DNA of 48,204 bases. It comes from a virus. Both the position numbers and the translations under genes were made by a program. The stretch is taken from the IMG/VR virus record IMGVR_UViG_3300019458_000051, positions 1-48,204 of that record; one strand, written 5' to 3'. Positions within the stretch are counted from its first letter, which is position 1; each line of letters opens with the position of its first letter. This document shows, piece after piece, positions 4,077-23,935 of this stretch. Below the pieces are notes generated by a model that ran no database searches, was not told where the DNA came from, and saw nothing but the letters and a program-made list of their open reading frames with translations.

Positions 4077-4319
4077 CTACCTCACCCTTCCAAGGAGGCG
4101 GGCCAAGCGGACCAGGCCCCTGTCCGTGATCTTGGCCCACCTCCTACCCGTTTCTTTCTGAACTCGGGCCTCGCTCCACTTGGGGTGCTTGGCGTGAAGG
4201 GTCTCGTGAAGCATGGTCTTGAGGAGCTGGCTCCCGCTCAGGTCGATCCATATCTTGTTGCCGCTCTGCTTCCCGTAGAAGCGCTTGAACCTCCTGTGGA
4301 TGACCTTCAGACCCTTCAT
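4077..4319 (-). CDS. Putative SprT/zincin-like HEXXH protein, 80 aa
   Basis: The protein contains HETLHAKHP with HEXXH at residues 38-42 and a Glu at 50 (WSEARV) that could be the third ligand. It resembles short phage SprT-like or zincin fragments with an N-terminal basic beta-hairpin. The substrate is unknown. ATG 4319 starts the gene, with only 7 bases to the upstream exonuclease gene's stop. It is the second HEXXH protein in this genome (the other at 1415-1810) and is not obviously its paralogue. Confidence 0.6.
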   Translation of the reverse strand: MKGLKVIHRRFKRFYGKQSGNKIWIDLSGSQLLKTMLHETLHAKHPKWSEARVQKETGRRWAKITDRGLVRLARLLGRVR

Positions 4320-4326
4320 CGCTGGC

Positions 4327-5118
4327 CTACCCGATGTCCGTGGTGGTGGGGGTGATCGAGGCCGAGAAGCCCTCGGACTTTGTAGATCGGCCCCACGACC
4401 CGCAGGACTTGCACTGGAACCGATGGTACTTCCTAGTCTTGCTCTTAGAGTAGCCTCGGCTCTGAAGGTCCCTGGACCCGCAGGCGGGGTTGGGGCACAC
4501 GGCCCCGGCCGACCACAGGTTTGCGTTGGGCTGCCTGATCCACGGTGACAGGATCTCGTACAGTTCCTCGAGCAGCACGACGTCGTGCTTGTTGTACGCC
4601 TTCATCTTCGCCCAGCACTTCTTGTCCCCGGCCATGCATCCGAGCCAGAGGGACACGTCCTGGTGCTCCATGGTCTTCTGGCCGATCCCGAGCTGCTTCG
4701 ACAGCCAGTTGAGTCTGTTGGACGAGAACGAAGCGACCCTGGTCAGGTCCCTCCTGGTGTCTACGACCTTGTATGGATTGGGTGGCCTGAACTCTCGGGC
4801 TATGAAGCGGGCGTTGATCCTACGCACGTCGAAGTCGGCCCCGTTGTGCGCCACCACTATGTCCGCCTCTGAGAGCAGGTCGTGAAGGTCAGAGAGAAGC
4901 TTTCGCTCTGTCGAGTCTCCGCCCTTGTATCCATCGTAGTCAGGCAGGCCACGATAGATGATGCCCTTGGAGCCCCTCCAGCTTGCCGCGAACGACAGGA
5001 TGTACCAGTGCTCCTTGACGGTGAGGGCGTTCTCCTGGTACACCCCCCACGAGTAGACAACGTTCGGGGAGGTCTCAATGTCCAGGAAGAGGATCCTTGG
5101 CCCAGCCCCTGCTTTCAT
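4327..5118 (-). CDS. DnaQ-like 3'-5' exonuclease with C-terminal zinc ribbon
   Basis: This is an RNase H-fold DEDD exonuclease related to the proofreading domain of family B polymerases. ExoI FLDIETSP places Asp13 and Glu15; ExoII HNGADFD contains Asp97; the last motif YNKHDVVLLEEL has Asp179. Residues 208-239 carry CPNPACG and CKSC, a zinc ribbon likely used for DNA contact. ATG 5118 has GAGGAGG upstream. With no polymerase gene in the window, it may act in repair, recombination or host DNA breakdown. It overlaps the upstream gene by four bases. Confidence 0.8.
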   Translation of the reverse strand: MKAGAGPRILFLDIETSPNVVYSWGVYQENALTVKEHWYILSFAASWRGSKGIIYRGLPDYDGYKGGDSTERKLLSDLHDLLSEADIVVAHNGADFDVRRINARFIAREFRPPNPYKVVDTRRDLTRVASFSSNRLNWLSKQLGIGQKTMEHQDVSLWLGCMAGDKKCWAKMKAYNKHDVVLLEELYEILSPWIRQPNANLWSAGAVCPNPACGSRDLQSRGYSKSKTRKYHRFQCKSCGSWGRSTKSEGFSASITPTTTDIG

Positions 5119-5501
5119 GCTAACCTCCTCAGTCTCGCGTGCTCTCTGCCGTGGCACCCGGTACAGTAGAAAACGACCTCTGTCGGCTTGGTGTAGTCTG
5201 AGTGATGCCTGTGCTTGGCGGCACCACCGCAGCCTGCGCATGGTCCCATAACAGGATGGGCCCGGAGGGCGGCAGAGTGTGCATAGCTGTGCTCGTTGTG
5301 GAAGCGCCTTGTGGCCTCGCTGGGCCTTCGGCCTCTCGACCTGTCATAGGCTCGAATGCGCTCAAGGTTGGTATCCCTATGACGAGTTACATCGTCACGA
5401 GTGCATGGCTTGCACTTTCCGAGGCGGCCATCCGCCATCATTGGATGGCGGTAGAAGTCACGCTTCGGCTTCTCTTGGACGCATCGGAAACAGCGCTTCA
5501 G
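5115..5501 (-). CDS. HNH/zinc-binding phage protein, probable non-ATG start
   Basis: The C-terminal part has CAGCGG, HHSDYTKPTEV and CTGCHGREH, the spacing of small phage HNH-like or double zinc-binding proteins. The first in-frame ATG is at 5441, but the frame is open upstream and encodes CFRC and KRDFYRHP; with the later GKCKPC this completes a common phage zinc motif (CxxC...FY.HP.MADG..GKCK.C). No ATG, GTG or TTG precedes it; CTG 5501 overlaps the SSB stop and has a G-rich stretch upstream. The true start is therefore likely CTG 5501 (128 aa). Nuclease activity is not assured. Confidence 0.6.
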   Translation of the reverse strand: MKRCFRCVQEKPKRDFYRHPMMADGRLGKCKPCTRDDVTRHRDTNLERIRAYDRSRGRRPSEATRRFHNEHSYAHSAALRAHPVMGPCAGCGGAAKHRHHSDYTKPTEVVFYCTGCHGREHARLRRLA

Positions 5502-5986
5502 ACCAGGCCCCCGATCAGGGTTGCCATCACTGCCACCGGAAGCAGGGCGGGGAGGGCGGCCACCAGGCTGAAGGGTAAGTCTTCGTCACTGGCCACGAAC
5601 GCGCCGGGGTCGGACTTGGGTGGAGAGGCGTCCGTCCTGGCCCCACCGCCCAGCAGGATCAGGTTAGACTGGGGACCGGACAGGACCACCTTCGTGCTGT
5701 ACCGCTTGCCGCCGTCGTTGTCGGTCCATTCCTCCGTCCGGAGCTGGCCGCTGACGTACACCTTCGACCCCTTGGTGACGTAGCTCTGGGCCACCTTCGC
5801 CAGGCCGCCGAAGACGGTCACGTTGAACCACTCGGTGCGCTCCTGCGGCTTGCCCGCCTTGTCCTTCCACTTGTCGCTGGCCGCCACGCTGAAGCTGACC
5901 AACGGCTCCCCGGCCTTGGTGTAGCGCACCTCCGGGTCCTTCCCGACATTCCCGATCACTTCCACTCGATTCAGTGAGTAACTCAT
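5498..5986 (-). CDS. ssb: Single-stranded DNA-binding protein with hydrophobic tail
   Basis: The first 112 residues are a typical bacterial-type OB fold (MSYSLNRVEVIGNVGKDPEV, later EWFNVTVFG and GSKVYVSGQL). A short linker leads to DEDLPF at 134-139, the acidic tip that in bacterial SSBs recruits partner proteins and is normally the very C-terminus. Here 23 further residues follow (SLVAALPALLPVAVMATL and a Gly/Val end), strongly hydrophobic and long enough to cross a membrane. ATG 5986 removes an unrelated upstream extension. Its partners probably include the Sak4-like ATPase and the exonuclease genes. Confidence 0.9.
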   Translation of the reverse strand: MSYSLNRVEVIGNVGKDPEVRYTKAGEPLVSFSVAASDKWKDKAGKPQERTEWFNVTVFGGLAKVAQSYVTKGSKVYVSGQLRTEEWTDNDGGKRYSTKVVLSGPQSNLILLGGGARTDASPPKSDPGAFVASDEDLPFSLVAALPALLPVAVMATLIGGLV

Positions 5987-5990
5987 TTGC

Positions 5991-7181
5991 TTAGCTCCAC
6001 TCTTCTCTACGGTACACGCCCAGACCCTCGTCCGACACACCGAACGGAGACGAGAATCCGGCGGACTTGTCATCCTTCTTTTCACCCCTCGAGTACGATC
6101 CCAGCGGCTTCGGCTTGGGGGCTTCGGCCGGAGCCGGCGCTGCTGCGTCCTCATCCGCACCGCCAACGTCTATGCGCCTCACGTCGATCAGGTTGGCCGC
6201 GGCGTACATCATCGCGTCCATGATGTTGTCGTAGTACCCGTCCTTCGCCGGCTGGTCGGGCTGGGGATTCTCCCTGGTGGGACGGCGGAAGGTGTACCCA
6301 CCGTTGAAGCCGTCCCGAAGGATCTTGCAGTGCCTCTCGACGACCAGGAATGGCTGGGCGCCCTTGGGGGGCAGCCTGAGCAGGTGGCGAACCACCAGCT
6401 CCCTCGCCTTGACCGGGGCCACCCACAGGTTCAGCGGGAACCCGGCGCTGGCCCACAGGTCGTGAATCCTCCGCTCCTGACTCTCGTCCGCCACCTCCTG
6501 CGAGGTGCGGATCGCCTCCTGCCCGGCGTAGCGAAGCACCTGCCGTCCGCCCTCCCGGAGGTTGCGGAACCACGGAACGGCCGGGCCGCGGCCCTCGTCC
6601 GAGGCGCGGCGCAGGTCGGCCACGTGCTTGAGGGCCTCGGGGCTGAGCCGCTGGTCATCCATCTCCCCGATCAGCCACTCGACCACTTCCATGAACGCCC
6701 GGCCTGAGATGTCCTGCGGCATCCACTCCCGGAGAAGGAACAGCCTGGTCTTCCGTGGGTTGGCCTGCATCGCCACCGCAGCCGGGCGGCGGAAACCGAA
6801 GTCCAGGCCTATGGCGAAAGGACCAGAGCCAAGAGAGGTGAAGTCCCGGACAAAGAAGTTGTCGCCGCCGCGGGAGATGTACTCCGGGAAGAAAGGGGAC
6901 TGGGTGCTCATGCTCCAGTTGCGGAGGAACTCCCTCTGGAACCGTGCCATACCTATGGTGGCGATCATCTCGAGCGCCCACTGCTCGTCCTTCCTGGGGT
7001 CGGCCCAGAAGTCCAGCTCCGTCACGTGCCACTTCGACATGGGGGTGACGCGGCCACGGAATCCATCGTTCTGTCCGAAGTCCGCGGGGAGCGCCTTCAG
7101 GAAGGACTCCCGCTCGTCCTTGGGCAGGTCGTACTGCGACTTATGGCTCAGCTTGGAGCCGTGCGGACGGTGTGGGGTCAC
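5991..7181 (-). CDS. Large terminase, nuclease half
   Basis: Large terminases pump DNA into capsids and cut it. This 396-aa product lacks an ATPase and resembles the C-terminal part: an ERKFxQEF-like segment (IGMARFQREFLRNW, about 76-89), then the RNase H-like nuclease starting AIGLDFGF (Asp127) and the late acidic motif DGYYDNIMDAMMYA (Asp318, Asp322). The last 60 residues are a charged, Pro/Ala-rich tail. GTG 7181 abuts the stop of the intervening zinc-ribbon gene. The ATPase half is at 7355-8077. The two would have to assemble, unless the split reflects an assembly error. Confidence 0.8.
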   Translation of the reverse strand: MTPHRPHGSKLSHKSQYDLPKDERESFLKALPADFGQNDGFRGRVTPMSKWHVTELDFWADPRKDEQWALEMIATIGMARFQREFLRNWSMSTQSPFFPEYISRGGDNFFVRDFTSLGSGPFAIGLDFGFRRPAAVAMQANPRKTRLFLLREWMPQDISGRAFMEVVEWLIGEMDDQRLSPEALKHVADLRRASDEGRGPAVPWFRNLREGGRQVLRYAGQEAIRTSQEVADESQERRIHDLWASAGFPLNLWVAPVKARELVVRHLLRLPPKGAQPFLVVERHCKILRDGFNGGYTFRRPTRENPQPDQPAKDGYYDNIMDAMMYAAANLIDVRRIDVGGADEDAAAPAPAEAPKPKPLGSYSRGEKKDDKSAGFSSPFGVSDEGLGVYRREEWS

Positions 7182-7358
7182 TCAGTCCCTCGAGACGTGG
7201 CCGAACGGATTCTCCGCTGCGGAGGCGTGGAACTTCTCCCGTCGCGCGTCGTTCTGGAACCTGCCGAAGTGCCAGCCGTACCCGATCTGCCTCTCGTGTG
7301 GGCAGTAGGGCCAGTCGCCTATGGCGACCTCCTTGCCGCACTTCTCGCACCTTGTCAA
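7182..7358 (-). CDS. Small zinc-ribbon protein between the terminase halves
   Basis: TTG 7358 overlaps the TGA of the ATPase half (TTGA). The 58-aa product starts TRCEKCGKEV and has YCPHERQIG, so Cys4, Cys7, Cys19 and His21 could bind zinc; the rest is Arg- and Phe-rich. The coding signal is clear from the conserved pattern and exact packing: the stop at 7182-7184 abuts the GTG of the nuclease half. It may be an independent protein that bridges the halves, or an insertion that split a single terminase gene. Confidence 0.65.
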   Translation of the reverse strand: MTRCEKCGKEVAIGDWPYCPHERQIGYGWHFGRFQNDARREKFHASAAENPFGHVSRD

Positions 7359-8077
7359 GAAACCTCCTGCCCCTCAGTCAAGATCGAATTCATGTAGCGC
7401 GAGCCCTCGCTGCCAGTCTCCGGGGTGCTGACCAGGATCATCTGCTTCGTCATTGGCGCGAGGGCGGCGACGATCTCTCTCAAGTACGGCTGGCGGGCGG
7501 CCTCGTCGACAACCGCGATAGAGGCTTGATCCCCACGCGCCGCCCTGTCCTGTATGTTTTCCCCGGTACACCTGATCGACGATCCCGTTCGCCCGTAGTA
7601 CAGAGTGGCGAACTTTTTCCGCTCGTCGACCTGGGCCCACGCGGCGAACCAGGCGGGCCAGTTTTGATGCACGATCCCGAGGCGATCGAAGAGCATCTCT
7701 TCCGCTTCCTGATGGGTGGCCTTGTTCAGCAGGCACCGGCGGTGCGGCTTCGTGAGACACACGAAGTCCATCCACAGCAGCACCATCCAGCTCACCATCA
7801 ACTGTCGCGGCTTGTCCACGATCTCCTTCCGGTAGTTCTGGGAGAACCTCTTGAGCAGGTGGAGCAGGTACGGCCACTTCGGGAGGGCCTTGATCGGGTT
7901 GTCGTCGTCGTGCGTGTCCTTCGTCTTCACGATTGGGTCGCCCGTCTCCGGGTCTTCGCCCCAGAAGTAGAGCATGGGATTCGTATGTATGTCCGCCAGG
8001 AATTTCTCCCGGCCGGGCGTAAGGTCCCCGTCGCCCACCCCTGACGTCGATCGCCCTTCTTCCCACAGGCCGCTCAC
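7355..8077 (-). CDS. Large terminase, ATPase half
   Basis: This is the ATP-hydrolysing motor domain. A deviant Walker A is seen in KPRQLMVSW (residues 89-97), as in many terminases with K(A/S)RQxGxS. Walker B is SIAVVDEAA (186-194, with Asp191-Glu192), and the coupling motif is ILVSTPE (214-220). The frame stops soon after the coupling motif at residue 240, where intact terminases continue into the nuclease. GTG 8077 is supported by a GTGA overlap, although the frame ending there has no clear start codon. The nuclease half begins 174 bases downstream. Confidence 0.85.
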   Translation of the reverse strand: MSGLWEEGRSTSGVGDGDLTPGREKFLADIHTNPMLYFWGEDPETGDPIVKTKDTHDDDNPIKALPKWPYLLHLLKRFSQNYRKEIVDKPRQLMVSWMVLLWMDFVCLTKPHRRCLLNKATHQEAEEMLFDRLGIVHQNWPAWFAAWAQVDERKKFATLYYGRTGSSIRCTGENIQDRAARGDQASIAVVDEAARQPYLREIVAALAPMTKQMILVSTPETGSEGSRYMNSILTEGQEVS

Positions 8078-8129
8078 TCTCTCACCGAGGCCACGAAGTC
8101 GTTGTACGCAAGCTCGTTACAGCAGGGCT

Positions 8130-8468
8130 CTACGCCGGCTTGGTGGCAGACGCCGCAGTGCGTGGCTCCACCTTGAGCATCGGGGCCACGACCTTTTGGA
8201 ACCCTTCGGCGGCGCGCCGAACGTCGTCGAGGTCCTGGGCGTTCCTGGCCTTGTACGCCAGGATCGCCGCCTGCGTCATGGTCTCTTTCCTGATCCAATC
8301 TCGCCTCTCTTCCGGGTTCCTGAGCAGCCTCCCGACCACCTGGCGAATCGCCCGCTCGGCGTCCCCGCCGACGGTGGACATGGCCGCGAAACCGGTGCCG
8401 CGGATCAGCTCGGCCTGAGACTGCTCCGGCTCGGCCTCAGAACTCTCGGACTTCGGGCTTTCGGACAC
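8130..8468 (-). CDS. Hypothetical protein, possible small terminase
   Basis: GTG 8468. The 112-aa protein has a Ser/Glu-rich disordered N-terminus (about 1-20), then long charged helices (AERAIRQVVGRLLRNPEERR) and an Ala/Lys-rich end. Small terminases are often short helical proteins encoded just before the large subunit, so position suggests that role, but there is no clear helix-turn-helix. It overlaps the resolvase gene by 32 bases. A 53-base gap separates it from the ATPase half. Confidence 0.5.
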   Translation of the reverse strand: MSESPKSESSEAEPEQSQAELIRGTGFAAMSTVGGDAERAIRQVVGRLLRNPEERRDWIRKETMTQAAILAYKARNAQDLDDVRRAAEGFQKVVAPMLKVEPRTAASATKPA

Positions 8469-8727
8469 GGTCCCTCCAGCGTATCAGAACCTTGCTGGCG
8501 TTCGTCGGCGCCCGGAACTGGCGGATCGCTTCCTCGTCGGCCGGGGACAGGCTGGCCTTCCCGGACTTCACCTGGGCCAGCACTATACCAGCCGGAGAGA
8601 TCCCGATCACGTCGAAAAGGCCGTGGCTGCCGGCCATTCGGAAGGCCACGTACCCGACCGACTCGAGCAGCTCCATAGTGCGTCGCTCGAGCCGGTAGCC
8701 CTTGCGGTACTGCCCTCCTGGCTTCAT
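8437..8727 (-). CDS. Hjc-like Holliday junction resolvase / PD-(D/E)XK nuclease
   Basis: The 96-aa protein has the layout of archaeal-type Hjc resolvases: GYRLERR (Glu14) in helix 1, RMAGSHGLFDVIG (Asp39), and LAQVKSGK in place of the usual ExK (Gln52, Lys54). Such enzymes cut branched DNA made by recombination or before packaging. The Gln for Glu change occurs in some phage members of the superfamily but should be tested. ATG 8727 overlaps the stop of the Sak4-like gene (ATGA), placing it in the recombination cluster. Confidence 0.75.
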   Translation of the reverse strand: MKPGGQYRKGYRLERRTMELLESVGYVAFRMAGSHGLFDVIGISPAGIVLAQVKSGKASLSPADEEAIRQFRAPTNASKVLIRWRDRVRKPEVREF

Positions 8728-9674
8728 TGGCCGTTCAGGGCCTTGAGGCCGTCGAGAGCGGACGTCAGAGACGCCAGCTCGGCCTCGGTCAGGTTCCCCG
8801 GCACCCTGTGTCCGGCCTGGGACATCACCAGGTCCAGGAAGGCGCCCTTGTCCAGGCCGGCCGACTTCGCCATCACGATCAGGCCCTGGAGCTGCGAGGC
8901 CGTGATCTTTGCCGCGGCGGGAGGCGGTGGCGGGGACGGCTCGAGCAGCTCTCCCTTGCCGGCGAGCAGGAACTCCCGGAGCTTGGCCCCGTGGGCGACG
9001 TCTGGGACGAAGACCTGGCCGTCGAAAAGGGCCGTCCGGTCCTTGGTCACCCGCGCCTTGTGGGACTCCTGGTCGAGCTGGAACTCGATCTGGAACTCGT
9101 ACTCCGTACCGGGCCGCTGGATCGGAGCCAGGCCGACCTTACGGGGCTCCGTGAACCCCTTCTCGTTCTTCTCGACCACCCACTCCACCTTCTGACGCAT
9201 GGTCACGATCAGGTGGGCCCTGACGGCGAGCAGGCGCTGTATGAATCGGTTCTGGAGCGGGGTCCCCTTCTTCCATGCGGCGAACCCTTCCTTCCCGCCG
9301 CGGCTGGTCTGCTGGGAGTCGACCCACTCTAGCAGTCCGCCCTCGCCGGCCCAGGCGAAGCTCACCTGGTCGACGACCAGGGCCCTTCGGTCCAGGGGCA
9401 CGTCACCGAACCCCTTCTCGGCCGCGTCGATCGCGTCGATGTACCTCTCGATGGTGTACGGCGCCGGAAGCGAGACCACACCGAAGCCGCCCGCAAGACC
9501 CTCGTACATGTCCGCGGAGTCTTCGGTGTCGACGACGATGATGCTCCCGTCCGGGCCCGCCAAGCCTCGGGCGAACTTGATCGAAGAGTACGTCTTCCCG
9601 CCCCCGCTAGGGCCGATGACCGAAACCCTGGCCAGGACCCGCTTCCGCGCTGCCGGCCTTACCTCGAACCCCAT
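8724..9674 (-). CDS. Sak4-like RecA-fold ATPase (single-strand annealing)
   Basis: This is a RecA-core NTPase of the phage Sak4 type: Walker A GPSGGGKT at 21-28, a VVDTED segment near 47-52 and Walker B RALVVDQ at 97-103. Family members anneal or pair single strands with help from SSB. The C-terminus has a Pro-rich linker (SPPPPPAAA) and a small helical domain. ATG 9674 is preferred because GAGGAGG is 7 bases upstream; GTG 9680 is too close. It overlaps the stop of the YqaJ-like exonuclease (TAATG), a classic exonuclease-annealase pair. Confidence 0.8.
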   Translation of the reverse strand: MGFEVRPAARKRVLARVSVIGPSGGGKTYSSIKFARGLAGPDGSIIVVDTEDSADMYEGLAGGFGVVSLPAPYTIERYIDAIDAAEKGFGDVPLDRRALVVDQVSFAWAGEGGLLEWVDSQQTSRGGKEGFAAWKKGTPLQNRFIQRLLAVRAHLIVTMRQKVEWVVEKNEKGFTEPRKVGLAPIQRPGTEYEFQIEFQLDQESHKARVTKDRTALFDGQVFVPDVAHGAKLREFLLAGKGELLEPSPPPPPAAAKITASQLQGLIVMAKSAGLDKGAFLDLVMSQAGHRVPGNLTEAELASLTSALDGLKALNGQ

Positions 9675-10564
9675 TACCACACCTCCTCGTCCTTGATCCC
9701 GTAGACCCGCATCTGTCTGTAGGGTCGGTCCCCCTTGGTCATTTTCCAGGTCACCCTCACGCCATCGACGTCGTCCACCACGGCCGTCTCCGCCGCCCCC
9801 ATGGCGTACTTGATGTTGGCCTCGATCAGATCCAGCTCGTCGGAGAGCTGCTTCTTCTGAGAGATCAGCTTCTTCCTCTGCTGGAGCAGCTCGAGGTACG
9901 ATCCGTCCAAGGTCACAGCCGGCTTGGACGCATCCCCAAGGTATCGGTACAGCGCCGTGATCCCGGCGTTGTCGCCAGGAAAGCTCGGCGGAGGGGGCTG
10001 GTCACACTTGAGGTAGTCGAAAAAGGCGCTCGAGTGCAGTGCGATCTCGCTCTGAAGCTCTTCGTCCGGCAGAACGTCGAACAGCTTCAGATCCACGCCC
10101 TGCTCGCACACGGCCAGGACCGCACCGGGGGCCTCGGTCACCATGAGCTGCGCCTGGACCTGGTACAGCCACCCGTGGGGAAGGTGCTCGAGCTCGGTCA
10201 CGTAGTGACCGTGAAGCTTGGCCTCGACGATCCTTCCGTCCTCGGCTATGCCGTCCAGGGAGGTGGCCAACCAGGGCCTAGATTCCGACTTGTGGAGCAG
10301 GTACGGATCGACCGCCTCCACCTTCATCCCGAGCGAGAGGGCCGCCTCTGCCAGGATGCCGTCCTGGAACGCCCGCCCCAGGCGCATCCTGGTGGTCGGC
10401 TCGTCCTCCTTGACCAGGCCCTTCTTCAGGGACCACAGCTTGATAGGGCTCGAGCCGGAGTAGCCCTGCCCGAACAGCACCGGGACGTCGGTGCTGGTAA
10501 CGTACTTCTTCCTCTCGTCCAGCCACGCCTTGCGCTTTGCCTCGTCACCGATCAACAGGCCCAA
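9674..10564 (-). CDS. YqaJ/lambda-type exonuclease (viral recombinase)
   Basis: The sequence matches the YqaJ/lambda exonuclease family of PD-(D/E)XK nucleases: TSTDVPVLFG (23-32) with the following SPIKLW, GRAFQDGI (63-70), SLDG with Asp104, EAKLHG giving Glu114 and Lys116, and a QVQAQL helix (135-140). These enzymes resect double-strand ends 5' to 3' to make tails for the annealing protein encoded next. A coiled-coil-like segment lies near 225-250. TTG 10564 has GGGGGT upstream. Its product probably works with the Sak4-like protein and SSB. Confidence 0.85.
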   Translation of the reverse strand: MGLLIGDEAKRKAWLDERKKYVTSTDVPVLFGQGYSGSSPIKLWSLKKGLVKEDEPTTRMRLGRAFQDGILAEAALSLGMKVEAVDPYLLHKSESRPWLATSLDGIAEDGRIVEAKLHGHYVTELEHLPHGWLYQVQAQLMVTEAPGAVLAVCEQGVDLKLFDVLPDEELQSEIALHSSAFFDYLKCDQPPPPSFPGDNAGITALYRYLGDASKPAVTLDGSYLELLQQRKKLISQKKQLSDELDLIEANIKYAMGAAETAVVDDVDGVRVTWKMTKGDRPYRQMRVYGIKDEEVW

Positions 10565-18861: not shown

Positions 18862-19058
18862 TATTCCTCCCTCATCGCGCCCCTGACCTTGGCGCGATAC
18901 GACTTGAAGACCCCACGGGCGCCACCGGACGGCTTGGCCCCCTTCTGCTTGTTGGCGGTGGCGTAGAACACCGACTCCGCCTTCTTGGGTCCGTAGGTCT
19001 GCTTCATGTTTCGCATGACCTTATCGCCCTCTCCGTCGTAGTAATTCTTCAACGCCAT
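18861..19058 (-). CDS. Small basic phage protein, 65 aa
   Basis: ATG 19058 follows AAGGAGG and overlaps the big virion gene's stop (TGATG). It starts MALKNYYDGEGDKVMRNMK with YGPKKAESVFYATANKQKG, a pattern common to short phage proteins (YY.G.G..V...MK..YG...A..VFYATANK). The exact role is not known. The tail is Arg/Lys-rich. Confidence 0.65.
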   Translation of the reverse strand: MALKNYYDGEGDKVMRNMKQTYGPKKAESVFYATANKQKGAKPSGGARGVFKSYRAKVRGAMREE

Positions 19059-22000
19059 CACTGCCTCCTTGAGAGCATCTTCCTGCGGGCTCTCTCCCGC
19101 GCCTCTCTCTTCTTCAGTTCCTCACGCTGGCGCTCTGCCTTCTCAGACGTGACCCCGTGCTCAGGGGTCCAGTACCAGTCGTCCTCGTCACCGAACAGAA
19201 ACTTGACCCAGCCTGGGCTGAAGTTTGGCCTGGTCTTGCTGGGGGCAACGCGCTCCTTCACCTCCCCCAGGGCGGCCCGTCCGAGTCCGAACGGGTTGGG
19301 CATGAGGTTTCCGCCGATGTTGTTGATCCACTGCCTGTAGAGCTGCCTTACCCTGGCTGGCGTATACTTCACCTTGTCGTCGGAGTTCAGTAGGTACTTA
19401 ACGAAGTCGGTAGCCCCCACCGCCACTTCCGCTACGGACTGTACCGGGGCTCCGGCGAAACCAGAAACATTCTGCCAGGTCTCTCCGTACTCTTCCCCGG
19501 AGAAGTTGAAAGACCTTGCTCCCCTAGCAAGAAGGGCGTCTGGGTATCCAACCCCTCCCGCGTATTGCCACGCCTGAAGTCCTGCGATCGCCAAAGACAT
19601 TGCGTCCATGTCCGACTTGTCGATCGGTCTCGTGCTGGAAATCTTGGCGTACGCCTGGGCAAGCTTTCTCAGGTGCTCCCTGGGGGTCTCGGCATCTGCC
19701 TTTAGAGATTCAATGTCCTCTTCGTTCAGCCCCCTACCCTTGAGAAGGGACGATGCGGCCAGGGACATGCTTCCCCACAGAGGAGCCATCACGGCGTGGT
19801 AGGTGATGAGGGTCCTGGCTGCCCTAGCCATGCCGGCCCTATCTCCGGACTTCATGGCGCTCCTTAACCTGCCCACCTCCTTGACGTTCCATCTCCAGTG
19901 CTGGTACGGGAATGCCATGAAGGTGTTGAACACCTTCGCTACCGGGGTGTTCTGGGCCAGAGGAATGTTCTCGGCCCTGGTCCTGTAGTTCGTCTCGTCC
20001 ACAAACAGCTTAGCGGCCCGGTCCATCAGCCAGTCCCCACGATCGAACATGGCCTTGGTTCCCTCGGTGGTCTTTCCGCCCCGCGGGCCAGGCTCTATGA
20101 TCGGCTTTCCGATTTCACCCCTGGACAGCCTGGCCTCCAGGGCGTCGGCGCTCATTCCGACCGCCTCCTGGGCCAGCTCCTTGCTTCTGAGCATCTGCTC
20201 GAGAGCCTTCAGATTCTTCCTTCTCACTGCGTCAATGAAGGTGAGGCGCCCAGCCCTGTCGCTCCACTGACGAACCCCCTTGTCCACGGTCTCCATTCCC
20301 CAGGTGGTGTCCACGAACTTCTTCCATGCCTCTGGGGCCCGGCCTCCCAACTTCAAGGCCCTACCCACCACGGTCTCCCCTACCCCACCATGCCTCTCGA
20401 ATATTTCTCCGCGCAGAGCCGTTGGGGTGGAGACCGCCGCATCCCTGGCCACCTGCGCATGGGAGAAGACGTAGTCCCTTGAGGCCCTGACCAGATTCGA
20501 GACCCCTCGGCGTATTCCTGAAACTCCGATAGCGCGAGCGGAGGGCACCGCGGCCTGAGCCATCTGCCTCACCTGGGATAGGCCAAGCTTGGTCAGTCCC
20601 ATCACCGCCCTGACCTCCATGCCCGCACGCTCGAAAGTGCCACCGGCCAGTCCGGGCTGGCTGTACCCGAACGACTTCTTTGTCGTGTCGGCAACGAACT
20701 GCCTCTGCTCCGGACTCATCAGAGAAGACCCCACCTTGGCCACCTCGCTGCCCGGTCCCAGATACCGGCCATGAGCGATCCTCTCCCATGCGCTGTAGAG
20801 GTACTCGCGCACCACTCCGGGATCACGCCTGAAGTCCTGCGCGGCCAGGTCGGTCCTCACCCTCTCTAGGTGTCCATACTTCTTTTGCCAGGACTCGTTC
20901 CCGTAGTTCTTCGACAGGTCCATCTGGGCCAGATCCATTAGATCAGCGCTAGGACCACCCACCCAATCCTTGTGCTGCTTCCTGACAGCGTTAGCTCGAG
21001 CCTGACCCTCCGGAGTGTTCCTCATCCACTCCGCGTGCGACTCGATCAGGGCCTCGTAGCTAGGACGTTCTCTCATGTGAGGAAAGAAGTGGTCGATCTC
21101 CTGACCGCTGAAGGTCCCCGCCTCCTTGCCAGCGCGCTTGACGTCGTTCATGAACGCCTTGACCGAATCGTAGGCCGCCTGCTCGGTCGGCTTGAGACTG
21201 GAGTACGGCCTGTCTCCGTTGAGGGACTCCACGGTCCTGGCCCACGCCCTGTCGAATCCCTTGCCCTCTTGCGTCTTCAGCCTGGCGATCGCGTCGTCGT
21301 ACGCGCGTACGTACTGACCGCCCTTGGCCTCTCCGTAGTCCCTGGCCTCTTCGAACCCCTGGGCGATCTTCTCCCCTACCGGCTCGCCCTTGGCAGTCTT
21401 CATCTCCCTGATGCGCTCCACCGCCGGCTTCATCCACCTGTGCCACCACGGCACCTTCTGTCCGTAGTCGGCCTTGGGCGGATTGGCCCCGGTCGGTGGA
21501 GGGGCGGCCTCGGAAGGAGGCTTGGCGGTCGGAGCCTTGGCGGAAGGAGTGGTTTCGGAGACCAGGGCCGAATCCGGAACCCTCCCGCCATTGGCCTCAA
21601 GGACCTCGAATCCCCTTGGGCCCTTGATCCCGTAGGTTTCTCCGGGCCGCGGCCTGTAGTCCACCGCCTCCGGACCGATTAGCGGCCTTTCGTTCCCGGC
21701 CCTGTCAAACACCACATACTTCTTGCCCTGCATCTTCATGGTCGCCTGGCGGCTGATCGCCTCGGCTGACGCAGCAGATTCGAGGCTCGCGTTGGCTTGT
21801 GAACCAGGCTGATCCAGCGCCCTTCCACGCGACGGCAACTCCGGCACAGCCTCGGACGCCTCCCTAACGGCCCTTTCTAGGGCAGTTTCCGCCGGCCTTA
21901 CCGCCTCCTGTGCTGCACGTGCTGGCGGAGGGGCCTCCTGTGCCGTCCTGGGCGCAGGTGGCGGCTCCTGGGCCGGCCTGACGCCAGCCCGGTGGACCCT

Positions 22001-23935
22001 GGAGGCAGCCTCGAGCCCTCCGATGGACGCCAGGTCCACACCCATTCCGCCGGCCTGACGGTAGAAGTTGTCCGACAGGCCCTCTTCTTTCCAGGTCTTG
22101 TACAGCGAGATGGACTGGTCGTATAGACCCTTGACCAGAAGTCCCTGCATGATCCTGGTCACCACCACGGGCACCTTGGCCATGCCAAGGGCAGCCATCA
22201 GCGGGTCGGTAACCATCTCACCGCCTCTGGCCAGCGCTCCAGCGGCCAGGCCCTTCAGCGCCTTCTCCTGCTCCGTCTCCCCCTCCTTGGGTGGCTGGGA
22301 GGCCCAGTCCTGTATGAGCTGCGCCATCCTACCTGCCGGACCAAGGACCGGAACCGCCTTCATCACCTCCGGCAGGGCCCGCTGGCGCCAGTCCGGAGGC
22401 GCCCCCAACGCCTCCCCCGCGGCGCCGACCAGCTCTCCTGGCAGCCCCAGGGCCTGCTCCACGACCCCCACCCCCGGCGCTGCCGCCCTGGCCAACTGCG
22501 GAGCCATGCCGGGCTGCGGGCCCGCCACGGCCGCCTCGGAGGCGGTCCTGGCCATGAGTTCCTGGGTCGTCGGAACCGTGGCTGGGGGCGGTCCCAGGAG
22601 CCCCATTACCTCGCCTCCCCCGCCGTAGCCAACCATCCCAGGAGTGGGCCCTTGTGGCGGAAGGGCGGCCTGGACTGGCGGGGCAACCTGGGCTGGAGGG
22701 GCGGCAGGGGCGGCAGTGGCAGGAAGTGTAGGGGCGGGAGGCGGCGGCGAGGTGGTGGGACCTACCACGGTCGTAACCGGCGGAGGTGGGGGCGCGGCGG
22801 CCATCCCAACCCCTACACCACCTATTGTATCACGACCCGTTTCAGCCAGTGCTCTAGACGCGGGCGGGCGGTTGGACGCCCCGATCCCGACCGCCGCGGT
22901 GGCGGCCTTGGCGGGGGCCTTGGTCCGTCCGCTGACCGCCTCTGCCGGCTCTTCTGCGGTCTCGGCCGCGTACAGCTTGGCCTGTCGGCTGGCCTCGGCC
23001 GCCATCTCCATGGCCATCTTCGGGTCACCGATGGAGGCCAGCCAGGTGGCGTACTTCCACTGCCGCATCGCCGCGGGCATCACGTACCTGGACCGCCCCG
23101 CCTTCTCGACGTCAGCCTCTGTGATTGATGGGCCCAGGGTGGGACGGACGATCCCCTCCCCCTGTTCACGCAGCCTCCCACCTATCTCCCCGGCCGTCTC
23201 CTGGACGGCCCTCATCCGCTCAATCCTGGAACGTATCTCCGATTGGTCTACGTCTCCTTCCCTGGGCCTGACCCCCGTCTCCAGCTCTCGCTCCCGGTAG
23301 ATGTCGGTCTTGGCCTCCTGGTACAGATCGGCATCACTCTTTGGGGCCCTGGCACCGATCGCCGCCCATCGGCGCTCCCTCGCCAGGCGCTGCCTTTCCT
23401 CGGACAGCTCACGACGCTCCCCCTCCCGCAGCATCCTCTCCCTGGCCGCGGCCCTCCTGTCCTCGGCCGACTCCCTGGATCGCTGGAACTGCTCGTACTG
23501 CGCCTGGGCCCTGGAGCCCAGCTTGTACTCCTTTTCACGAACTTCCGCCGCCTCGCCGGCCTCCCGCTCCAGTTGCTTCTCTAGCCGCTTCTGCTCGGCC
23601 CCAACCGATGCGGCGTAGTCCCTCGCGGCATCAGCGCTCAGGCCGCCAACCGGGGGCGGAGACACCATACCGGCCAGAGCTGCGTTTCGCTGAGCGGACT
23701 CCAGTTCATCCCTGACCTTCCTGGCCTCGGCCTCAGACTCAGCCGTGAGCCTGGCCGCCTGGTCCTCACGGGCCCTGCGACTCTGTATTAAGGATGCGAT
23801 GTCGGACAGGGCCCGAGAGAATTCCGAGGCGTAGTCCCTCTCCTGACCGACACCGGAAGGCAGACCTATCCGTACAGAGTAGTCGTCTCCGCCTCCGCCC
23901 CTACGCCTACGGCTTATGCTGGAACCAAGTGGCAC
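19058..23935 (-). CDS. Very large internal virion (ejection-type) protein, 1625 codons
   Basis: This is the largest gene. N-terminal residues about 30-370 are charged, coiled-coil helix. About 378-470 is a Pro/Ala-rich linker, then Gly/Ala-rich and helical segments. The C-terminal half (about 800-1600) is helical with Trp-rich patches and resembles large internal or ejection proteins of podoviruses. No lysozyme or polymerase motif is seen. Start GTG 23935 has AGGGGTGATT upstream. A conserved promoter element at codons about 362-371 precedes in-frame ATG 22804, which would yield a 1248-aa shorter form. Ejection function is inferred from size and context. Confidence 0.65.
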   Translation of the reverse strand: MPLGSSISRRRRGGGGDDYSVRIGLPSGVGQERDYASEFSRALSDIASLIQSRRAREDQAARLTAESEAEARKVRDELESAQRNAALAGMVSPPPVGGLSADAARDYAASVGAEQKRLEKQLEREAGEAAEVREKEYKLGSRAQAQYEQFQRSRESAEDRRAAARERMLREGERRELSEERQRLARERRWAAIGARAPKSDADLYQEAKTDIYRERELETGVRPREGDVDQSEIRSRIERMRAVQETAGEIGGRLREQGEGIVRPTLGPSITEADVEKAGRSRYVMPAAMRQWKYATWLASIGDPKMAMEMAAEASRQAKLYAAETAEEPAEAVSGRTKAPAKAATAAVGIGASNRPPASRALAETGRDTIGGVGVGMAAAPPPPPVTTVVGPTTSPPPPAPTLPATAAPAAPPAQVAPPVQAALPPQGPTPGMVGYGGGGEVMGLLGPPPATVPTTQELMARTASEAAVAGPQPGMAPQLARAAAPGVGVVEQALGLPGELVGAAGEALGAPPDWRQRALPEVMKAVPVLGPAGRMAQLIQDWASQPPKEGETEQEKALKGLAAGALARGGEMVTDPLMAALGMAKVPVVVTRIMQGLLVKGLYDQSISLYKTWKEEGLSDNFYRQAGGMGVDLASIGGLEAASRVHRAGVRPAQEPPPAPRTAQEAPPPARAAQEAVRPAETALERAVREASEAVPELPSRGRALDQPGSQANASLESAASAEAISRQATMKMQGKKYVVFDRAGNERPLIGPEAVDYRPRPGETYGIKGPRGFEVLEANGGRVPDSALVSETTPSAKAPTAKPPSEAAPPPTGANPPKADYGQKVPWWHRWMKPAVERIREMKTAKGEPVGEKIAQGFEEARDYGEAKGGQYVRAYDDAIARLKTQEGKGFDRAWARTVESLNGDRPYSSLKPTEQAAYDSVKAFMNDVKRAGKEAGTFSGQEIDHFFPHMRERPSYEALIESHAEWMRNTPEGQARANAVRKQHKDWVGGPSADLMDLAQMDLSKNYGNESWQKKYGHLERVRTDLAAQDFRRDPGVVREYLYSAWERIAHGRYLGPGSEVAKVGSSLMSPEQRQFVADTTKKSFGYSQPGLAGGTFERAGMEVRAVMGLTKLGLSQVRQMAQAAVPSARAIGVSGIRRGVSNLVRASRDYVFSHAQVARDAAVSTPTALRGEIFERHGGVGETVVGRALKLGGRAPEAWKKFVDTTWGMETVDKGVRQWSDRAGRLTFIDAVRRKNLKALEQMLRSKELAQEAVGMSADALEARLSRGEIGKPIIEPGPRGGKTTEGTKAMFDRGDWLMDRAAKLFVDETNYRTRAENIPLAQNTPVAKVFNTFMAFPYQHWRWNVKEVGRLRSAMKSGDRAGMARAARTLITYHAVMAPLWGSMSLAASSLLKGRGLNEEDIESLKADAETPREHLRKLAQAYAKISSTRPIDKSDMDAMSLAIAGLQAWQYAGGVGYPDALLARGARSFNFSGEEYGETWQNVSGFAGAPVQSVAEVAVGATDFVKYLLNSDDKVKYTPARVRQLYRQWINNIGGNLMPNPFGLGRAALGEVKERVAPSKTRPNFSPGWVKFLFGDEDDWYWTPEHGVTSEKAERQREELKKREARERARRKMLSRRQ
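22824..22851 (-). promoter_or_regulatory. Conserved promoter element, copy 2, inside the virion gene
   Basis: On the minus strand it reads CACTGGCTGAAACGGGTCG then TGATACAAT. The TACAAT -10 box at 22829-22824 is 20 bases before in-frame ATG 22804, with AGGGG between. It is embedded in coding sequence for the flexible linker (ALAETGRDTIGG). A start here would give a C-terminal 1248-aa product. Confidence 0.6.

Follow-up and report, generated by a model that had tools for sequence, protein, structure and literature searches.

A probable two-gene large terminase, cut between ATPase core and lid, in an uncultivated tailed phage

In gp17, the large terminase (TerL) of phage T4, the lid subdomain (NsubII) acts as a transmission, linking the engine, which is the ATPase, with the domain for nuclease activity and translocation (PMC3012670). 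Cutting gp17 at the linker between lid and nuclease leaves both activities in place but abolishes translocation (PMC3012670), so function in trans is not a given. The precedents found in the searchable literature for terL genes in pieces are of two kinds only, intron-split and frameshifted. In ICP1 (PMC10448857) and the Jug phages (PMC12363816), terL occupies two or more open reading frames (ORFs), and splicing restores one protein. In Parabacteroides phage phiPDS1, the large terminase is annotated as two CDS (PMC10773633); this enzyme is GKS-type and unrelated to the one described here, and both the overlap of its frames and the break lie within the nuclease, which is consistent with a frameshift. 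An essential phage enzyme can function in two pieces: a ribonucleotide reductase gene is split by a homing endonuclease gene, and the phage enzyme works as two peptides (PMC10448857). The family described below would likewise have an essential phage enzyme that works as two peptides, with the differences that the enzyme is another one and that no homing endonuclease is recognised between the halves.

The window—the whole stretch of DNA that was analysed—is a complete IMG/VR record of 48,204 bases; it comes from an uncultivated tailed phage whose genes for portal and head are podophage-like. Three genes concern us, all on the minus strand: the TerL ATPase core, or ASCE subdomain (7355..8077; 240 aa, GTG start), a zinc-ribbon protein of the form CxxC...CxH (7182..7358; 58 aa, TTG start), and the lid-plus-nuclease half of TerL (5991..7181; 396 aa, GTG start). 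The first-pass annotation had described these ORFs and their tight junctions, and all three are present exactly as it said: the ATPase stop and zinc-ribbon start overlap as TTGA, and the zinc-ribbon TGA directly abuts the nuclease GTG. A strong Shine-Dalgarno sequence (GGGGCAGGAGG) lies just 5' of the zinc-ribbon TTG, and ribosome-binding sequences stand ahead of the inner starts. Directly upstream of the ATPase is a gene for a 112-aa protein (8130..8468, minus strand), a candidate small terminase with no PHROG match; directly downstream of the nuclease is a single-stranded DNA-binding protein (SSB) gene (5498..5986, minus strand).

The terminase genes sit within a recombination/replication block (4327-10564, minus strand) whose members are a RecE-like exonuclease, a Sak4-like ATPase, a Holliday-junction resolvase-like gene, then the terminase, SSB, HNH, and a polymerase exonuclease; the portal gene is 5 kb away. 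Downstream of the exonuclease is a small HExxH metalloprotease-like gene (4077-4319, minus strand), and further away an ORF of 1625 aa with a low-complexity proline-rich stretch (19058-23935, minus strand) is probably an internal virion protein.

Relatives were elusive to begin with. Used as single queries, the nuclease, ATPase and portal sequences found nothing useful in a phage collection or among viral contigs; Pfam recognised neither TerL half, and a PDB sequence search with single proteins gave nothing meaningful. It was the conserved exonuclease of the window that led to the first relative, L005, which has the same three genes, a TerL 54–56% identical to that of the window, and much the same junctions (TTGA, then ATGA) and Shine-Dalgarno sequence. 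Two more, L007 and L008 (55–63% identical), carry the ATPase, a HELVH metalloprotease-like gene, the zinc ribbon and the nuclease in that order, the small HExxH gene between the TerL halves lying at 3524-3781 in L007 and 4684-4944 in L008. All three relatives keep the 112-aa gene in its position upstream and the SSB gene in its position downstream. A wider scan yielded 80 contigs. After removal of near-copies there were 47 fused TerLs, mostly of 430–540 aa, among them five that belong to named phages. Across IMG/VR and MAG (metagenome-assembled genome) contigs there were 19 split nuclease genes without an ATPase, the window and its close relatives counted in. A separate ATPase gene is present in nearly all of the split records (none was found on the short L039 and L041 stretches), and each of 10 whole records searched has exactly one ATPase gene and one nuclease gene, two being interrupted by intein-like inserts. 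A search of plasmids gave no match; among MAG contigs, L108 is split, with a 4-nt overlap, and L109 is fused.

Recurrence on this scale bears on the most mundane explanation, that one ordinary terL gene has been broken by a sequencing or assembly frameshift. phiPDS1 illustrates how such a case would look, with two terL ORFs in different frames that run into each other inside the nuclease, but here the split recurs in independent contigs at 54–63% identity, with the gene order kept, and again across a deep clade. The relatives have already refuted the idea, to which we attach practically no probability; the annotation's opinion that this was no frameshift error was sound.

The ATPase matches the PHROG terminase large subunit with E 1.8e-9 as a single protein, and the ATPase-family profile matches the sequence of T4 gp17 with E 1e-18. 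In a structure search its predicted model (pLDDT 84) aligned with residues 82-307 of T4 gp17 (Z 19.4), 6-208 of HK97 and 9-190 of D6E. The ASCE signatures of a TerL core are all there: a deviant Walker A, KPRQLMVSW (7787-7813), a Walker B DE (7502-7507) and, as the coupling motif, STP (7421-7429), all on the minus strand. K89-x-RQ, D191 E192 and S217 are invariant or nearly so in the family alignment. The Walker A is deviant in that the P-loop lysine is missing from its usual place, and the invariant lysine, K89, is at the start of the motif, instead. Lambda terminase has a similarly displaced Walker A lysine. T4-type enzymes and the window family have an SRQ-type Walker A region in common, but the P-loop lysine is present in T4 (SRQLGKT) and absent from that place in the window family (KxRQxxx[ST]).

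The other half contains an RNase H-fold nuclease domain (6174..6902, minus strand; residues 94-336). Its predicted model (pLDDT 72, mostly good for residues 60-340) aligns with the nuclease domains of D6E (residues 234-417, Z 17.6), P22 (Z 15.2), G20c and SPP1, and so has the fold expected of a TerL nuclease. Of the catalytic acids, D127 (motif I) and D322 (motif III) are kept. The Asp-Pro of motif II is replaced, GDPA having become GxEA (window 6516-6518) here and in L005, L007, L008, L013 and L014, and the aspartate's role is probably taken, to judge from the alignment, by a relocated acid: a Glu two residues on (E222) that is conserved in all six of these window-subclade members. Because the aspartate has been replaced, nuclease activity in the window's subclade is uncertain.

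Between the nuclease domain and the start of its gene lies the feature that identifies the cut. The nuclease-side profile behaves as two modules. Positions 20-73, corresponding to window residues of about 41-95, match fused T4-type TerLs directly after their ATPase core, precisely at the place expected of the lid (in Magia, core 43-237 and match 240-292; in S-CREM2, core 22-228 and match 228-279). Positions from about 69 onward match GKT-type TerLs only, the ATPase of which belongs to a different family. A profile confined to the first module, the lid (6897..7061, minus strand), matches fused T4-type TerLs at 1.5e-7 to 0.03, adjoining the core in S-CREM2 (1.5e-7), Omnitron (2.1e-6), X1 (1.6e-5) and Magia (2.1e-5), and has zero matches among GKT-type TerLs. 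D6E agrees. There, residues 230-241 form the linker from lid into nuclease (PMC5727402), whereas the window ATPase ends at the equivalent of residue 190; the missing 40 residues, therefore, correspond to the lid. Judged by these profile matches and by the D6E comparison, the break is not at the hinge between ATPase and nuclease but inside the ATPase domain, and the lid travels with the nuclease gene. The first-pass annotation thus had the genes right and the boundary wrong: there are two, but they do not cleanly divide ATPase from nuclease. The lid was assigned by sequence profile in place of structure search, in which this part of the model (residues 1-93; modest confidence, with block means of pLDDT of about 57–78) was not aligned to known lids, perhaps as its orientation is free. 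Compared with the experimental cut in gp17, the natural cut is elsewhere: lid and nuclease are kept together, and the core is on its own.

The two modules appear to have different origins. Profiles show the core and the lid to be homologous to TerLs of the T4 gp17 type found in T4-like and jumbo phages (Serratia phage BF, Xanthomonas X1, S-CREM2), but these are single polypeptides with a different nuclease, whereas the window family has two genes and a nuclease that matches the GKT-type lineage only. It is not, then, a T4-type TerL, which would combine core and lid with a T4-type nuclease. With GKT-type TerLs (MW202477, MW202637, Pelagibacter phage Hodr), the RNase H nuclease is common (profile E 1e-25 to 1e-68), but these too are single polypeptides, and their ATPase core and lid are unrelated at the profile level. 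Profiles and trees together suggest that the family is a chimera: its ATPase core and lid are T4-type, while its RNase H nuclease derives from another lineage, that of the P-loop (GKT) terminases.

In the nuclease tree, for which fused sequences were trimmed to about their last 260–280 residues, one branch separates all 19 split rows from the 47 fused ones (support 100/99.9), most of the latter being GKT-type TerLs of podophage-like contigs; DP SC_6 (L003), a long and doubtful branch, was left out. In the independent ATPase tree, 15 split rows lie on one side and 11 fused T4-type rows on the other (support 93/88). The subclades agree in both trees—the window with L005, L007 and L008, then L013 and L014; L058 with L061; L055 with L075 and L080; L018/L016 with L030—from which we infer that the two halves have travelled together and co-evolve. 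One member stands apart. L109 (3125-4648), from a 358-kb contig of a Melainabacteria MAG (Ca. Caenarcanales), has the domain combination of the window in one uninterrupted gene of 508 aa. In the ATPase tree it lies inside the split group, but its branch is very long. It could represent the fused ancestor or a later re-fusion, and more than one fission in the family is also possible. L051 (IMGVR_UViG_3300020045_004402, 1-1155), its 5' end cut off by the contig, likewise joins a T4-type core and lid to a GKT-type nuclease in one gene, apparently as an independent fused chimera of like make-up.

What lies in the gap varies. The halves are from 4 nt overlapping (-4 nt; L030/L053) to 3.96 kb apart (L080), and the genes that fill the space are unrelated among lineages. 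Such interruptions call introns to mind, for terL is spliced in ICP1 and the Jug phages, and an intron or mobile insertion removed from the RNA would give a single-chain TerL here, as well. We think this very improbable: an Rfam search found no intron in the window or in 18 relatives, the window's gap is only 173 nt and is occupied by an ORF under constraint, the overlapping genes of L030 and L108 leave an intron no room, the gap genes differ by lineage, and the inner starts are preceded by ribosome-binding sequences. Nor, by eye, are intein splicing blocks seen at the break, at the ends of either half. Intein-like inserts, also recognised by eye, do occur in TerL catalytic motifs of relatives, away from the core/lid break: in Walker B of a split ATPase (L031:2402-3979), in motif II of a split nuclease (L048:3250-5205), in Walker A and motif III (L056:3867-6089), and in the STP motif (L004:3998-6490).

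Recoding could also rebuild one chain, by a frameshift at the end of the ATPase and readthrough into the nuclease, and the window invites the thought, since its zinc ribbon and nuclease are in frame and one TGA apart. Of the junctions compared (window, L005 and L007), however, the frames agree in the window only, differing in both of the others, so readthrough is not conserved; another gene comes first in L007 and L008, and a slippery site common to the junctions was not found. The chances of recoding seem to us exceedingly slim.

The zinc ribbon is evidently a gene. Its GC3 is 0.90, and nonsynonymous divergence between L007 and L008 (0.10) is lower than synonymous (0.29). Its match to Zn_ribbon_3 is below the cut-off (E 0.023). 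A small cysteine-rich gene lies between the halves in six of six window-subclade members (window, L005, L007, L008, L013 and L014), although for the proteins of L013 (4709-4915) and L014 (3836-3991) homology with that of the window is not provable. In the L055/L075/L080 group the gap contains another, larger gene of zinc-finger type, and several other split lineages have no zinc gene there. The zinc-ribbon gene had been credited with splitting the terminase. This we reject, because it is constant only in the window's subclade: in L030/L053 and L108 the two halves overlap by 4 nt, so that no gene separates them, and other lineages have other genes. Speculatively, from position alone, the small cysteine-rich protein of the window's subclade may be an accessory packaging factor. 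A bolder idea takes in the zinc-finger protein of the second subclade, too, and sees a motor of three components, the zinc protein being a true terminase subunit that docks an exchangeable lid-nuclease onto the ATPase ring, with subunit exchange regulating cutting and pumping; we regard it as possible, but doubtful.

The halves might be decayed or moonlighting, with another motor doing the work: within the window's subclade motif II has lost its aspartate, no lysine stands at the usual place in the P-loop, and the genes reside among recombination genes (RecE, Sak4-like, SSB). This seems unlikely. Residues of Walker B, of the STP motif, of the lid and of the nuclease are strongly conserved across deep divergence, and a search of the window record with phrog_2 and the family profiles found no second TerL. 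Assembly in trans is supported, rather, by the conservation of both halves, by their co-evolution, and because no other TerL was detected in the records searched.

Our preferred reading, to which we would assign a probability of about 0.8, is that the window encodes a naturally split TerL, one of an ancient tailed-phage family. As profiles and trees suggest, a T4-type core and lid would have been joined to the RNase H nuclease of the P-loop GKT-type lineage, and the gene then cut between core and lid. Two proteins would be made, one the ATPase core (ASCE) and the other a subunit of lid plus nuclease, with the gap genes, here the zinc ribbon, translated separately. Most likely the halves come together again at the portal, with no covalent bond between them: the core would recruit the lid-nuclease, and the lid, carrying the nuclease, would close over the core's ATP site. 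Translocation and cutting would then proceed as in a one-chain enzyme. With two genes in the window and in relatives, the usual single polypeptide is lacking; such a system would not be a single-chain TerL, though in its working it may be TerL-like.

Full-text searches of the openly searchable literature found no published description of this split TerL family, and every named phage examined that matched either half has one TerL gene. Two-gene terminases are unusual, as first supposed, at least in the searchable literature and in named-phage records. In the vocabularies used to annotate actinobacteriophages, the ATPase domain and the nuclease domain of the large terminase have entries of their own, so specialists may know of further two-gene terminases.

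Descriptions of TerL make it a universal one-chain motor and its lid the transmission between the engine and the DNA-handling domain. If the engine core is one protein and the transmission, with the nuclease, another, each could be varied independently of the other, and the coupling of force would become open to direct test. There are practical consequences, too. Searches that use terL as a marker, and filters that rely on its length, would miss or mis-score phages of this kind, and trees built from TerL can mix two histories.
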